In this document: one piece after another, positions 55,701 to 64,000 of the stretch | How the letters are laid out: each line of letters starts with the position of its first letter | How positions within the stretch are numbered: position 1 is the stretch's first letter | Assembly: GCA_964017235.1 (NCBI GenBank) | Contig: OZ024929.1 | Span: 159,139,609-159,203,608 of the forward strand | DNA: 64,000 bases | From: Sabellastarte sp. h YS-2021 | Lineage: Eukaryota > Annelida > Polychaeta > Sabellida > Sabellidae | Direction of reading: 5' to 3' | The notes under the pieces: generated by a model | What the model was told of the DNA's origin: nothing | Database searches by the model: none | The model's input: the letters and a program-made list of their open reading frames with translations, nothing else | Program-made: the position numbers and the translations under genes

Positions 55701-58700
55701 TTAATTATGTTACATGAAAAATTAAGCTGCTTCAGTTAAATCTGATAATTTCAATTCCTTGCTTGATTAAAACAAAACTGTCATCTACATGTTATATCCA
55801 AGATTAAGCTTATTGAAGCACTTTATCTTTTTACTTCAATACATCTTTTTTATGCGATATTGGAAAATACTTTTAATCATAAATTTTTAACTTAAAAGGA
55901 TTAAAGTAGGGTTTTTCTTGAAATCCAAACAATATTAGTGTTATAACTAGATTAATAATGTGAATTTTTTAATAATAAAAGGGTGAAGAGGGGGTGGTCG
56001 TCCTACCTCAAAACAGAGAGGGGGCTTTGTCCCTACTGTGCAAAAAAGTGGTAGGGGAGCTTCTGTCGGGGCGGGGGGGGGGGGGGGGGGGGGGCTTTTT
56101 CCACCTATGTGCATTTTAGTTCTCCATCCCTATAGCATTAACTTTAAACAAATCAGCGGTTAGTAGGTAAACAATAAAAAATTTACATGTATAATAAAGG
56201 TAAATATGGATTTCAGTATACATAAGCATCTTTTCGTTATGAGGATGCTCTGTCATCATGCTCTGTCAGGAAATAGGAATGTTATGCTTACACAATAATC
56301 CATTATGCAAAAATAAGCTTTAAAAATAATAGGTTTTTGTCACATAAAGACACAATTGTTGACATTTGAACCTTCTGTAAGGACAGTCTGATCTCAGGAA
56401 TTACATGCTTTTGATGTGGCAAACTTACTGCCAACAGGTCAGTGACATATTTTCAAGTGGCTTTCTTCCAGACATATGTGGGAGACAACATTAGCCTTGC
56501 TTACAGCTCACATTTGTACAAAATACTACAGCACTCACATATATCATGAGACACTAGCTCGTCACACTTTCTTTGCACTATCTTGATTTAAAAGCTAACC
56601 ATAGGCCAACAAGGACCTGAGTAGGTTACTATGCGTGACCTGCTTATTTTTAGATCCATACGAGTCACCTTGGATGTTTTAATCTGTGAAAACTATTGAG
56701 TCACAAGTCTAAAATATAGCCGTCTTTGCTGTTTTGGTCATGCAGTGATCACTTTTCATGATTCACTAATGCTTTTGGGATCCACTAATGCAAGAATAGC
56801 ACTGCTTGACCTATGTTGATGAAACAGTCCCACATGTTAACAGTCTATTATGTCCAGTTTCATTGTCACAAAATATGAAAAATATGGAGTCATATGTCCA
56901 CATAGCTAAATACTTGTAGATTTTATCCCTTGATCTCAGCTGCCCTGATGAGCCCTGAACAACAGATAGTAGACCAGATAAGTGTGAACCAAGCATAAAG
57001 AGAATTAAAATTTCCAAAATATTTTGAAAACTGTTTTTATCAATACCATCAATTATTCTATGTGCACTCTGTCTAAGCACAGGGTATGATATTACAGTTA
57101 AAAAGACTGCTTAGATAATGCTGGTCCTGTAATATTTTAAACATAAAACAATTTTTTTAAAGTCGGCCAACATGAGGCAATGACATTGGGTAACTGTATA
57201 TATATGTAAGTTCTTCTTGTTGTGTACAATATAAGTTTTGCAGTGAACAAAGCAACAGAGAGTGTTCTTGTGAACAGGGCAACTGTTCAGTAATGTTTAT
57301 GACAAGAATAAAGTTTGCCATAAACTTGGCCTAAACAATGCTACTCTGACCTACCTTTCTGTGTTATTCTGAATGTAATTTCCATTTTAATATTTTTAAA
57401 GCAAATATCATCAACATTCTTTAAATAGTATACTATAATAAATGTATCCTCTAATACACACACTTCTGTTGTGATAATGAAATAGTTAAGCAAAGACTCA
57501 TTCAAAGTGCTAATTAATGCATCTGCTTATACAAAGCACAGTATAATTTACCTCCATTTACAGTATCAATTTGATGAATGAATGTAAGAAGAAATCTCTG
57601 AAGAAAAATATGAGAAACTTCTTCAACTGAAGATATAAAGTTAGCCACTTAAATACTGTCAACACTTCAGTTTACATTATATAATGTTAATTTATCAGTC
57701 TAAATTTACAACAAATGGAAGACACAGTATAATTTTTTATGCCCGTCCATTTAACATTCATACACTTGTAAACCCTCAAATGACAGAAAAAAGAAGACAA
57801 TGGTATAAGTATCTGACTAAACATTGATAAAGCACTTACTTGGAAAGGCATGCTTTCGAGTATGTGTGTATATATAAGTGTAACAGAACTGTAGTATCAA
57901 TCACAAACTGGTTACAATCCAGAGAGAGTGGTACTTGTTGTCAATGAGAGAAGCTGGCATAGAATGACTTGGTATCAGCTTGTACACCGCAGTTCTTCAA
58001 ATCTACTACCCACACCTCCCTTCTGGCAGGCCAGTACTTTCAACTGCTGTGATTGACTGGGTTAGCCTTTGCCATCCTTCATTTTTATAGATTTACTAAT
58101 AAAGAAATCTAATCTAATGTATGATTTTTATAGTGCTAAATCTCCACTGTCAAGTGATCCAATCTAATCTATCTAATCAATCTAACACCAGCTCCTGAGA
58201 AACAAGCAAGGTCCAAAATAGCTCAGAGAGTCTCTATGAAGGTATTTATAAAGACAAGCATAGTAGTTTTGAAGACACAAAGAAACTGATTCTAATCTAA
58301 AGAACTAGTTCAAGACTTTTAGATTAACTTTCACTGAAAATACCAGCCAAGAACATGGCAGATAGTTATAAAGAAGAAATACTGTTGTGAATTTGAGGGT
58401 TTACAGAGGATTTCACGGTCAAATGCAAGATATGCAATATACCAAAACAAGTCAGTTTTTTTTCTTCATTTTTTGTGGAGAACACCTATAAATATATCAA
58501 AATTGAGTTTTAACAGGATATTCACCCCAGTTCTAACCTTGTGCTCTAATTATTTATATATACAAGTAATGTATCAGTTGATTAAAAGGGCAATTATAAC
58601 CGACTTGGGTGGTCTAGTATTTGTGAAAATAGACATATTATTGAAAAATAATTGTAGTAAACAAACTAGCGAACTCTACTGTTGTTAACTTAATGCAATT

Positions 58701-59740
58701 TGTTTTCCTAATAGAGTGTATTTAAAATGTGTGGAACATATATCCGGTATGTTTGGATGCAGATTCCATTACTTTTCACTATTATTTTCCAACATAAGAC
58801 TTTGAGCTGTGACAAGGCTTGATTAAATGGAGGTTCCATACACAAGAATGAGTAGCCTGTGCTAAATATAGAATTATTAGTGATTAATATTACAGCTAAA
58901 AACTGCACCCACACAGACCCTGTCGGGACAGTACAAGACTTGGCATTTTGGAAGTGCTGTATACACTCATACCGTAATCAAATTATTACTGACAAGGGGC
59001 TGGTATTCTTGAAAATTACTTGCAAAAAAGTCTTAAATCAATTAGTACTGCTACAGATCTGTATGCATCAGCCTCCTGACTAAGCACAACCGGTATTAAC
59101 TAATTAGGCAGAAGTAGAAATAACTTTAAGGTCTCAACACATAAAACTATCTTAATTTTGTGGGTAAATGCGACAGTCCAAACTGCATGCAAATGCTGTG
59201 GAAATTGAAGGTTCCCGCTAGAGTACACAGTATTCAACTGTCACAAATAGTTCAGGAGCATCTCCCGAAAATCATAAACTTTTTTTCTTTTCTTCCTGGA
59301 TATTCTTTTGCAAATTCCTCTCTTACCATGAACCAATCCTGAAAATATGCCAAACAATGAATAATGTCAAGGAAGGAGTGTGCAATGAATCTGTGATGGT
59401 AATAAATAAATAGAAACAGCTCCAGAAGAGTACTATTACCGAAGTGATACTGCCATGTTCTGTTACAGTCGTGAGCAGTTTGGTATATATTTTGGAGACT
59501 GAAGCATTGCAAAAGACAACAGAATTGATTAGGAATACTGAAAAATTGGATTTTTATCCAGGAAGCAAAACTTTTCCTGAGTAAGCAAAGTAAAGTTGTG
59601 ACTGGGTTATCAACTCTGTTTATCCTAGAGTAAAATGCAGGTTATTTCCTGTTGAGACATACCTCTGTGTAGTTTAATCTCATTGCCCAGGGGGAGCAAG
59701 CAAATTATTCATACAATAAAGAACAATAGCTCATATATTC
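52740..59740. other. Long gene-poor spacer
   Basis: AT-rich sequence; the only notable features are a tRNA-like B-box fragment near 53500-53530 and a G22 run at 56073-56094. Minus-strand LIM 5' exons were looked for and not recognised. Confidence 0.35.
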
Positions 59741-60216
59741 AAGGAATTGTGCACTTTGTGATAAAAGTACCAAAATTCCCAAACATGTAGACCAACATAT
59801 TACAAAAATTCTGGATATTTGGCCATTGATGACTTGGCCTCTGGTAGCCATGGCAACCATTTTACAAAATGGCCGTTGGCGGATTATAAACTTGCAATCC
59901 TTTTGGTCTACCAATGTAAACTTACAGATATATTTACTACAACAGACTACCCATGCATGGCTCAAAATGTATAGACTAATTAGACTATGTTACTATAGAC
60001 TTTAGTACTAGACTCTATTATGTGTATTCACAGATAACATACATTACAGTACACTAAGATAATCCAAACTTTGTTTTGCCAAAAATGACTATAAAATTGA
60101 CCTGAAACAGTTGGCTAAACTGTCTATTCTCCATAGTCTATACATATTTACAAGATAATTTAAACAAGGTGAGAACCCATTTCTTCTTCTATCCATCTTG
60201 CGCGTGCTGCTGAATC

Positions 60217-62850
60217 GTGCACTGCAGCATGTTTGAAGAGGCACAGCCTTTCAGTGGGTTCTCTCAAGGCTCTCAAGAGAAGTCGATGCCACCTCTGCTG
60301 CTTGCCCTGGTCAGTATGATCTTAGATGGACCCAGCATCAAGGACCAGATGACAGACACAATCACTGCAGCAGTTACCATTGCTCAGATGTTGAAGTTCA
60401 ATTGTGTGAAGCACAAGTGTAAGCAGAGCACCTCAGCATCCTCAACTGTAAGACATAGACCTGCACAAGAAACGCCTGTCCCCATATACATAGGTATGAT
60501 ATTGCACGCCCACACACACAAGAGGGAACTGATGGGCAGGCTATCACAACTTGGCCTCAGTATTTTATATAACTGTGTTCTCCGCCTCACAACCCAGATA
60601 GGGAGCAGCGTCTGCCAGCAGTTTCACCTGGAACAGGTGGTATGTCCACCAAAGATGTGTGGGGCAGTTTTCACTACTGCATCAATGGATAATATAGATC
60701 ACAATCCAAGTGCAACAACAGATAAGTCCTCATTCCATGGCACAGCTATCTTCCTCATCCAGCACCCCAGCTTCACTGGAGAAGGAGTGGATTGAACCAC
60801 AGTGTTCTCTGGAGGATCAGGGGATGGAAGTTCCACGTTTATCCACCAACTGTTACAGTATCACACAGACATGCCTTCTGTCACCAGCAGTATCAAGAAT
60901 GTGTCTCTTCCAGCAGCTAGGGTAACTTTGCTGGCCAGAGAGGTCAAACTGCACAAAGAGGAAGAATGTCTGTGGCTACACAAGGCAAGGCAGGTTCTAG
61001 ATGGCAATGATGGGCAGAAGATAGCATATCATGGACTGCATTTCATGCCAGCCTTCAGCCACCAGAAACTCAACCCATTTGTTCCACCGCACTGCTTCCG
61101 ATGTTCCAGGAAAGTGCCCACACAGTGGCTATGATCTAAAACTCCCTAGATGTAGTGAAGAATGCTGTGCAGTGGTCACCTTTGATCAGCCTGTGTTTAC
61201 CTTGGCCAAGCAAATTCAGTGCAAGTGGCCAGAGGACTATGGTGAAGACAAGGTTGTGGTGATGTTTGGCGGTTTCCATATTGAGATGGCTGCTCTGAAA
61301 ACCTTTGGGAGACTGGCTGGATGGGAGTGGTTGGGTGCAGGCACTAGTTCAAGCTGAGATTACCACCCCCAGAATGGCTACTCTTCCTGCGTGCAGCCCA
61401 TGTCACCTGCACAACATGAGCTCACCAAGTCACTGCACTCTTTATCCTGCAGCACTGTGCCTATGACTGCTACTGTGAGAGAGAAGCTACAGAGGCAGAT
61501 GATCAGCTCAAGTTTAAAGACTAGAGCTACCAGAGAGGACAAGACATCCCTCAGTTCCAGTACTGGTCAATCGTGCTGGAACTAGAGCTGCTGTTGCACA
61601 TTTATGTGTGTTCCCTGCGAGAGGCATCCTTTAATATGTACTTAGATGCCTTGACAGAACTGGCTGGATGGTTCCATGCCCTGGACCACACCAAGTATGC
61701 CAGGTGGATTAAAGTTCATTTGAAGGACATGGCTGAAAGACATCCAGAAATAGCCAGAATGTTCAGAGAAAACAGCTTCACAGTACATAATACAACAAAG
61801 GTCTTCTCATCAATCCCAATCGACCAGGCACATGAGCAGAATAATGGCTGCACCTTTCGGAAGCTTTCATCCAGTGGTTTGACATTGAAGACAAGCAAAC
61901 TGTAATTACTAATGGGGAGGAAGTCTTCAGCAAGCCTCTACTACTGCCAGATCTAGCTTCATTGACTCCTTTTAACCATGAGGAAGCAGATAGCCGAATG
62001 TTGCTCCATGCATATCATGCAGCCCAGCATGGCCACCAAACGGTTGTCATCCGAACTGTTGACACCGATGTTGTGGTATTGGCTGTGTCCATGGCTCAGC
62101 ATCTGCAGCCAGCAGATGAACTGTGGGCGGCTTTTGGGAGTGGAAAGGGGTTCCGATATCTTGCAGCTCATGAAGTATCTACTGGACTTGGTCCAGAGAA
62201 AGCATGAGCACTCCCGATGCTCCATGCACTCACAGGGTGGGACACTGTATCCAGTTTTGCAGGTCACAGAAAGAAGACTATCTGGGCAGTGTGGAACTTG
62301 CTGCCAGAGCTAACTAAAGCTTTGCTGAAGCTATCATCTGCACCTTAGTTCATAATAGGAGATGTTCTACACACCATTGAGAGGTTTGTCATTCTGGTCT
62401 ATGACAGGACATCCACATGCACAGACATAGACAAGGCTCGAAGGAAACTCTTTGCAAAGAAACATGATGTACAGCATATTCCACCAACCAAGGCTGCTCT
62501 GGAGGAACATGTAAAGAGGGCAGCATACCAGGCTGGTCATGGTTAGGGCCAGATGCTGCTCCCTGCACCAGTACTGCCGCCAGCAACCAGTTGGCGACGG
62601 ATCAAGAGTGAGGAGGGAGGGTACAAGCCATACTCGACTTCTACCTGAAGCAGCCCACACCTTCCGTGAACTACTTTCATGCAAATGTAATAAAGGTTGC
62701 GTGAAACGCTGCAAGTGCAAAAAAGCTGCACTTGACTGCACTACCCTGTGCCAGTGCGAACTGATCATGCTCATCACTCATAACCATGATAACCTACTGC
62801 TGAAAGGTCTGCAAATTATGAGGCCAGTGAGCATTTGCAGATACTAGGGA
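60217..62850 (+). pseudogene. Decayed multi-copy gene: conserved N-terminal region, FEN/PIN-like motifs and CXC domain
   Basis: A family I recognise as widespread and uncharacterised in molluscs and cnidarians. Blocks in order: PVPIYIGMILHAHTHKRELM; MDNIDHNPSATTDKSSFHGT (near 60690); FDQPVFTLAKQIQCKWPEDY and VVMFGGFHIEMAAL (61180-61300); ALDHTKYARWIKVHLKDMAE (from 61678); IPIDQAHEQNN; FNHEEADSRMLLHAYHAAQ then VVIRTVDTDVVVLAV (61965-62095); and a CXC zinc-binding domain (62680-62757; eight Cys, C-x-C-x3-C-x3-C-x-C-x6-C-x3-C-x-C), the DNA-binding fold of tesmin/TSO1/LIN54. Stops at 60793, 61417, 61522 and 62205 and frame changes near 61110 and 61900-61960 show it is inactive. The stops at 60793 and 61417 fit CGA to TGA changes. 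The nuclease role is inference. Confidence 0.75.
62680..62757 (+). other. CXC (TSO1-like) domain segment
   Basis: CKCNKGCVKRCKCKK followed by LDCTTLCQC: eight cysteines with the spacing of CXC DNA-binding domains, at the C-terminus of the decayed gene. Confidence 0.8.
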
Positions 62851-63335
62851 TGGGTCGGTAGGTCTGGTATCTCAGTATCGAGAGCATTTTACTGAAATAC
62901 CATGACAAGATTTTAAAACTGCCACTTCGCTTGCTAACATATATAATGGAAGGAAGAATTAAAATATTAGAAACATACCCAAAATCTGAAGAAATAAAAG
63001 CTTTAATCCCGATATTTCCATCTATTTGCAGACTTTAAAGTGACACATTGAGCAGAACTGCCATGTTTTGGTTACGACACTTTATAACCTAAATGTCGCT
63101 TGACAACACATATAATGGAAGGAAAACTTAAAATATTGGGAATAAACAAGAAGTCTGAAGAAATTATCCAGGGTTCTCTCATATTTTGTGCATTTGGGGA
63201 CTTTTATTGCAATGTCATTAAGAGGAAATGTCAATTTTTGATTACTGTGTACTAAAACGCGGAGTCCCGAAATCGGTACAGTTTTGCATTGGCTACGTCC
63301 CGATGTACACATTTTTGATACAGACCCATCCCTTG
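62846..63335. mobile_element. hAT-like MITE
   Basis: AGGGATGGGTC at the left (62846) is inverted as GACCCATCCCTTG at the right (ending 63335). Flanks CAGATACT (62838-62845) and TAGATACT (63336-63343) match at 7 of 8 bases, the target-duplication length of hAT elements. The interior holds two copies, about 167 bp apart, of an ATATATAATGGAAGGAA-containing segment. Confidence 0.7.
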
Positions 63336-63349
63336 TAGATACTAAAGAG

Positions 63350-63850
63350 AAACTAGCAATATTATCACTTCTTTTGTCCTGAATTAAAAGCCAGATATTC
63401 CCATTTTCGTTTTAACTGTATTCAGTTTAATATAGTGCATCTCTAATCAACAATATTAACTGTTGAGATCATAGAAGACTTCATTATTCTTTCAAGCAGT
63501 GCTTGAAAGTACATGTGAATGTAGGGAGCTTACTGCAGCAAATTAATGGTAATACATGTATTTATTGGTTCTATAAGAGCTTTTCCATAAGAGCTATAAG
63601 AGTGGTTAGTTTTCACGTAAATAGAGTGTAAAGATGGGTTCTGTTAATCGCATCACTAGAATAAAACTGGTTCTGGAATTTCTGTTTTTTCGTGTTATCT
63701 GTCCATTTTAATCATGTTAACAGTGAAATCAAAACACATACACATTGCCTATTACTTTGCATAGTTTATTTAGAGCTTATGATGCTAGCTGACTCCATTT
63801 GAAATCACATAAGACTTCTTGGGACCCTATTCTGAACATTGGTTTAATTG
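63350..63850. other. Non-coding stretch inside the putative transposon
   Basis: Between the hAT-like MITE and the right inverted repeat. No coding similarity seen; probably 3' non-coding sequence of the element. Confidence 0.4.
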
Positions 63851-64000
63851 AACTGGTGGCCATTTTGGAAAATGGCTGCTATGGCCATTAGGGACCAAAT
63901 TGGCAGTGGCCAAATATCTAGATCTGTTCAGAATATGCTTTTCTACAAATGTGCCAAGTTTGGTGCTTTTATCACAAAATGCACAATAGGTCAGCTATGC

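Follow-up and report, generated by a model that had tools for sequence, protein, structure and literature searches.

Does a decayed gene of a multi-copy animal family, lying between inverted repeats, belong to the host or to a mobile element? The question is raised by the right-hand end of a 64,000-nucleotide stretch of the Sabellastarte genome (C3:159139609-159203608; the window, throughout). A first-pass annotation of this DNA, made from its letters alone, placed a decayed CXC-domain gene at 60217-62850 between inverted repeats at 59746-59874 and 63858-63987, and suggested that the family provides the transposase of an undescribed type of DNA transposon. That the element is a cut-and-paste DNA transposon bounded by terminal inverted repeats (TIRs) is close to certain. 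The window copy is dead, non-autonomous and internally deleted, approximately 4.3 kb long, and very probably represents the nuclease-carrying AcademX lineage of the Academ superfamily.

Ends, target sites and genomic copies

All genome searches were made in the 1.79 Gb assembly that holds the window. A DNA search with the gene region (60217-62850) returned 63 matching pieces, which we assigned by hand to 28 places, the window copy among them, distributed over eight contigs, so the family is indeed multi-copy. The 27 other copies, all from this same genome, were compared together with their flanks. On the left, homology starts at exactly window position 59726 in 23 of them (it starts elsewhere in L012, L033, L034 and L035); on the right, it ends within 64010-64020 in 20 (the exceptions being L010, L014, L017, L018, L023, L024 and L034). 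The true ends of the element read TAGTCAGGCAGC...GCTGCCTGACTA, with some variants among copies. In the other copies TAGTCAGGCAGC sits immediately outside 59726, and the outermost 12 bp on the left of the window copy no longer match it or its counterparts. The right end of the window copy (locus L001) lies at 64012, 12 bp past the window edge, and its tip is GCCGCCTGACTA rather than the GCTGCCTGACTA found elsewhere.

Two pairs of arms, 59810-59874/63858-63922 (78% complementary) and 59746-59801/63932-63987 (80%), rank at the top of 22 inverted pairs in the interval 58000-64000. The complete TIRs measure approximately 150-165 bp: of the seven copies compared, L009, L016, L021 and L026 have ends that can be aligned with each other across 153-163 bp (74-75% identity), the match being displaced by 9 bp close to the tip, and the alignment is shorter in the window copy and L020 (129-130 bp) and in L013 (64 bp). 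The long inverted repeats noticed around the gene are thus real, since the same ends recur in other copies, where the repeats occupy the same positions instead of being absent. Their first-pass coordinates were correctly placed although slightly short, as the element reaches 59726 and 64012.

Two right ends have unusual structures. In L019:2366-2649 the tip of the right end resembles a left end: the outer 150 bp match the left repeat (83%), and a longer stretch matches the right end (88%). In L018:5838-6140 part of the right terminal repeat (approximately window 63887-63982) is present as three tandem units.

The left end, used as a 161-bp query, matches at least 40 places in the genome (a lower bound, since 40 of 51 candidates were scored). 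Among the matches listed, 29 start at the first base of the left end and 25 of these lie within gene copies (L019 being counted twice), leaving four at C4:12627000, C4:12629815, C4:36569063 and C4:145146689; the 11 other matches listed are right ends, nine of them in gene copies. Because most listed end matches fall in gene copies, the repeats are element ends and not repeats dispersed independently of the gene. The left ends at C4:12627000 and C4:12629815 face each other approximately 3 kb apart with no gene match, possibly as a gene-less derivative.

Target-site duplications (TSDs) were sought in those 16 of the 27 copies that have exactly one terminal motif per orientation with at most two mismatches. 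When the boundary is placed at T/AGTC..GACT/A (slashes marking the cuts), 11 of the 16 show matching 3-bp duplications, compared with 1.69 on average and 6 at most in a shuffled control (none of 2000 shuffles reached 11). This combination was the best of 45 boundary and length combinations tried; two further ones also give 11 matches, being 2-bp parts of the same duplication, and all others give 5 or fewer. The 11 duplications are mixed in sequence (TAT, TGA, AGA, TAG, AGT, CAA, TTA, TAA, TAG, CAT and TAA). Counting against a 3-bp TSD are the five copies without a matching duplication (L009, L019, L022, L025 and L030).

One insertion has an empty site. At 84% identity, the joined flanks of L029 correspond to two homologous repeats without the element (L036:772-1068 and L038:260-556), and the frame broken by the insertion stays open across the joint, which identifies these repeats as empty versions of the L029 site. 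The other 15 of the 16 joined sites gave no match across the joint among the other fetched loci. The L029 copy sits inside the reading frame of a retroelement, two other copies of which show the empty site; we take this retroelement to be of the tyrosine-recombinase/DIRS-like type. Common ends, 3-bp TSDs and an empty site together bear out the proposal of a DNA transposon with long TIRs whose gene is the CXC family.

The window copy, its deletion and its nested insertion

A 125-aa fragment of the nuclease, used as a protein query, gave 110 genome matches, some of them distant (27-48% identity) and with long open frames. Four such relatives were fetched: P0001 (L036, 618 aa), P0002 (L039, 1604 aa), P0003 (L037, 861 aa) and P0004 (L038, 1230 aa, its frame running off the locus). 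The remnant in the window matches all four in tblastn searches, and stops interrupt each of its three forward frames; the decayed gene of the first-pass annotation is a genuine remnant. The parts of the window copy are as follows.

59726-59876, + strand: left TIR, starting where homology starts in 23 of 27 copies; outermost 12 bp unrecognisable here
60217-62838, + strand: decayed putative transposase gene, with stops in all three forward frames, tblastn matches to the intact relatives and 28 places in the genome
60271-60789, + strand: remnant of the front of the candidate transposase region, with a DNID motif seen by eye (tblastn, P0002 residues 364-543, E 8.7e-11)
61555-61836, + strand: remnant ending at the candidate catalytic Glu (DQAHEQ, by eye; tblastn, P0004 residues 469-565, E 5.3e-9)
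61852/61853, + strand: internal deletion junction, common to the window and 11 other copies; approximately 970 bp lost, with the front half of the nuclease domain
61878-62642, + strand: rear half of the FEN1/XPG-like nuclease, with HEEAD, DTDVVVLA and TG-DT motifs (tblastn, P0001 residues 316-570, E 3.8e-61)
62668-62760, + strand: cysteine-rich CXC motif at the C terminus (tblastn, P0001 residues 580-610)
62847-63336, no strand assigned: nested hAT-like miniature inverted-repeat transposable element (MITE), 490 bp, with an inverted repeat; at the same site in eight copies including the window
63858-64000, - strand: right TIR, reaching GCCGCCTGACTA 12 bp past the window edge; homology stops at 64010-64020 in 20 of 27 copies

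The segment of approximately 970 bp is missing from 13 copies, namely the window copy and L009-L020. The junction is identical in the 12 of these where it can be read (the window copy, L009-L017, L019 and L020); L018 lacks the segment and has also lost the junction bases. Most of the segment (830-967 of 967 bp) is present in L021-L024, L026, L027, L029, L030 and L033, and L025 and L028 hold parts of it. Since 967 is not a multiple of three, the deletion shifts the reading frame; with the frame disrupted and the first half of the nuclease gone, these copies were presumably mobilized in trans. They exemplify a deletion derivative that has increased in number, presumably with proteins supplied from elsewhere.

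The deleted copies could descend from one deleted master that was amplified, or they could reflect several deletions or gene conversion. The latter account is favored by the unconstrained tree of 26 copies, which requires three switches between the deleted and the full state. Descent of the 13 segment-less copies from one origin is nevertheless not rejected (p-AU 0.6), the tree constrained to it scoring 2.6 log units higher, and one junction is common to every copy in which it is readable. Repeated deletion or conversion therefore seems to us rather unlikely, and amplification of one deleted master the better explanation.

The nested MITE, which appears to be hAT-like from its ends and its 8-bp duplications (AGATACTA at 62839-62846 and 63337-63344), occupies the same site in the window copy and in L009, L010, L011, L013, L016, L020 and L034. 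In the tree, the seven MITE-bearing copies form one group (one change, support 99) although they lie at separate chromosome sites, so the host element moved repeatedly after the MITE had landed in it. The nearest relative of the window copy is L009, also a MITE carrier, at 93.8% identity over 3383 columns; the closest pair of copies overall is L026/L029, at 99.0%. Within the MITE there is an imperfect direct repeat (62905-62995/63074-63164).

The protein of intact relatives

From the four relatives, an intact element would encode a single long protein composed of a cysteine/histidine-rich N-terminal region, a candidate DDE-type transposase region, a FEN1/XPG-type nuclease and a C-terminal CXC motif. 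The first of these parts is visible by eye in P0002. The cysteine-rich CXC motif lies at the C terminus of three of the four (P0001, P0002 and P0004), and the Pfam TCR (CXC) model matches two of the four at E 0.4-0.6, below its cut-off. Pfam gave nothing above cut-off in the window pieces, the pieces of other copies or the four relatives, NCBIfam nothing at cut-off in the four relatives, and sequence searches of the PDB no credible match; the viral contigs and phage records searched held no relative. Several copies of a distant relative have an uninterrupted 861-aa frame with near-equal scores (C11:75342326, C1:124440013, C3:148440966 and C5:6830355), which suggests recent activity.

The nuclease assignment starts from ten residues that are invariant in P0001-P0004 (D216, D259, K267, R274, E349, E350, D352, D376, D378 and D436 in P0001 numbering). 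The catalytic residues of human FEN1 are D34, D86, K93, R100, E158, E160, D179, D181 and D233, and these residues of the FEN1/XPG flap nucleases, which are PIN-like, occur in the same order and with similar spacing. For a profile comparison we took 120 archaeal loci with a FEN1 motif, used 80 of them (L042-L121), and aligned 70 of the 76 proteins of at least 280 aa that they yielded. When the profile of the four relatives (A4) is aligned with these 70 proteins, D259-K267-R274 and the HEEAD, DTD and TGSD motifs line up with the equivalent FEN1 positions; the aligned part does not include D216. The score of 27.8 exceeds those of all 200 column-permuted profiles (mean 15.6, maximum 24.4) as well as those of two controls, the reversed profile (15.3) and the transposase region (13.8).

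Several results pull the other way. The HHalign probability for FEN1 is 5% (P 0.0076), and when profiles were permuted in blocks of 10 columns, one of 200 reached the score of A4. The comparison with the single host XPG was weak (P 0.05-0.065 over 16-17 columns), which is why the archaeal set was assembled. Pfam XPG_I matches none of P0001-P0004; genome-wide it has 10 matches, which include a host XPG/ERCC5-like gene and all lie outside the family's places and the fetched relatives. On balance, we consider the evidence for a FEN1/XPG-like nuclease domain in the relatives to be good but not final. Prokaryote genomes queried with the host XPG yielded no relative.

The region upstream of the nuclease is a candidate DDE-type transposase. 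By eye, a putative catalytic triad can be picked out as D (DNID), D (FDQPL) and E (DQAHEQ), aligned among the relatives. In Pfam, P0004 residues 219-611 match positions 17-404 of the 410 in DUF6589 (PF20231) at E 1.4e-4, and P0003 matches the same model at E 0.0018, both below cut-off. What speaks against the candidate is the nature of its basis, motifs chosen by eye plus the sub-threshold match of P0004; no transposase model in Pfam matched P0001-P0004 (up to E 1), nor was there a PDB transposase match. DUF6589 itself has 37 matches in the genome, and the one copy inspected, over 2.5 kb, shows no second domain by eye, which gave no link between DUF6589 and Academ. Our literature search returned no paper naming DUF6589. 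Five DUF6589 copies with near-equal scores have uninterrupted frames of 546-587 aa (C11:1413566, C11:98218154, C18:7320105, C7:21876765 and C7:4864059) and are possibly another active transposon family.

In the mechanism that we propose, the transposase would bind the 150-165 bp TIRs, excise the element and insert it elsewhere with a 3-bp stagger, while the nuclease may trim or resolve DNA flaps and the CXC motif may bind DNA. The family would then offer a concrete case of a flap-nuclease-like domain within a transposon protein. It also means that an "uncharacterised" animal gene family is a mobile-element gene, and we advise masking it in gene annotation.

Classification and comparison with known systems

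Which superfamily does the element belong to? Academ, for which Kojima 2020 is said to be the defining paper, is the most likely name, and we take the nuclease of its AcademX lineage to be of the XPG type. One published account has AcademX making 3- or 4-bp duplications and AcademH 9- or 10-bp duplications, lengths that its author links to the encoded nuclease or helicase (PMC10045372). Another describes Academ as abundant in bivalves, with 100 curated families averaging 5565 bp (PMC10294476). Against the name it should be said that its basis is agreement in TSD length, nuclease cargo and size with such descriptions, and not identity to a named Academ element.

This last point also favors a different reading, a superfamily distinct from Academ, which would combine in one protein a DDE-like transposase, a flap nuclease of FEN1/XPG type and a DNA-binding CXC motif of tesmin/TSO1 kind and would be hidden in animal genomes among "uncharacterised CXC-domain proteins"; that all Pfam and NCBIfam families stay below cut-off in the four relatives would fit it as well. 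We nonetheless find this reading improbable, given that TSD length, nuclease cargo and size all agree with Academ/AcademX as published. For the same reason the idea of an undescribed transposon type is not supported: the described Academ superfamily fits what was examined (PMC10045372 and PMC10294476), and, if the assignment holds, there is no new element type here.

Elements of the PIF/Harbinger and EnSpm/CACTA groups also make 3-bp duplications, as this family does. PIF/Harbinger duplications are TWA, whereas those found here are mixed, and the ends here are TAGTC..GACTA and not CACTA; moreover, P0001-P0004 have no match to a transposase model in Pfam (E up to 1), so that membership in either group is very unlikely. 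Least probable of all, to the point of being hardly credible, is a multi-gene family of the host that segmental or tandem duplication has spread, with unrelated dispersed repeats beside it. According to the first-pass annotation the gene family is known solely as uncharacterised, which leaves room for such an origin. Yet most copies lose homology at identical bases, there are target duplications and an empty site, the copies are distributed over eight contigs, and 25 of the 29 listed left ends lie in gene copies; these results already refute it.

Other named groups were considered and set aside. Kolobok duplicates TTAA, and the duplications here are 3 bp and mixed, which does not fit it. In Zisupton and its kin (KDZ) the KDZ transposase comes with CxC domains; no such Pfam match was found in P0001-P0004 at E up to 1. 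AcademH belongs with AcademX in one superfamily under the published scheme (PMC10045372), and from that account a 9-10 bp TSD and a helicase would be expected; we see a 3-bp TSD and no helicase match in P0001-P0004.

An Academ element of the AcademX lineage remains the reading that we prefer. By the published descriptions, the family shares with Academ/AcademX its TIRs, a 3-bp TSD, a predicted nuclease and a length of approximately 5.5 kb, from which the window copy differs in being a deletion derivative with a nested MITE. Compared with FEN1/XPG nucleases, the putative nuclease domain is too diverged to be recognized by Pfam XPG_I and, unlike them, it appears joined in one protein with a transposase-like region and a CXC motif.

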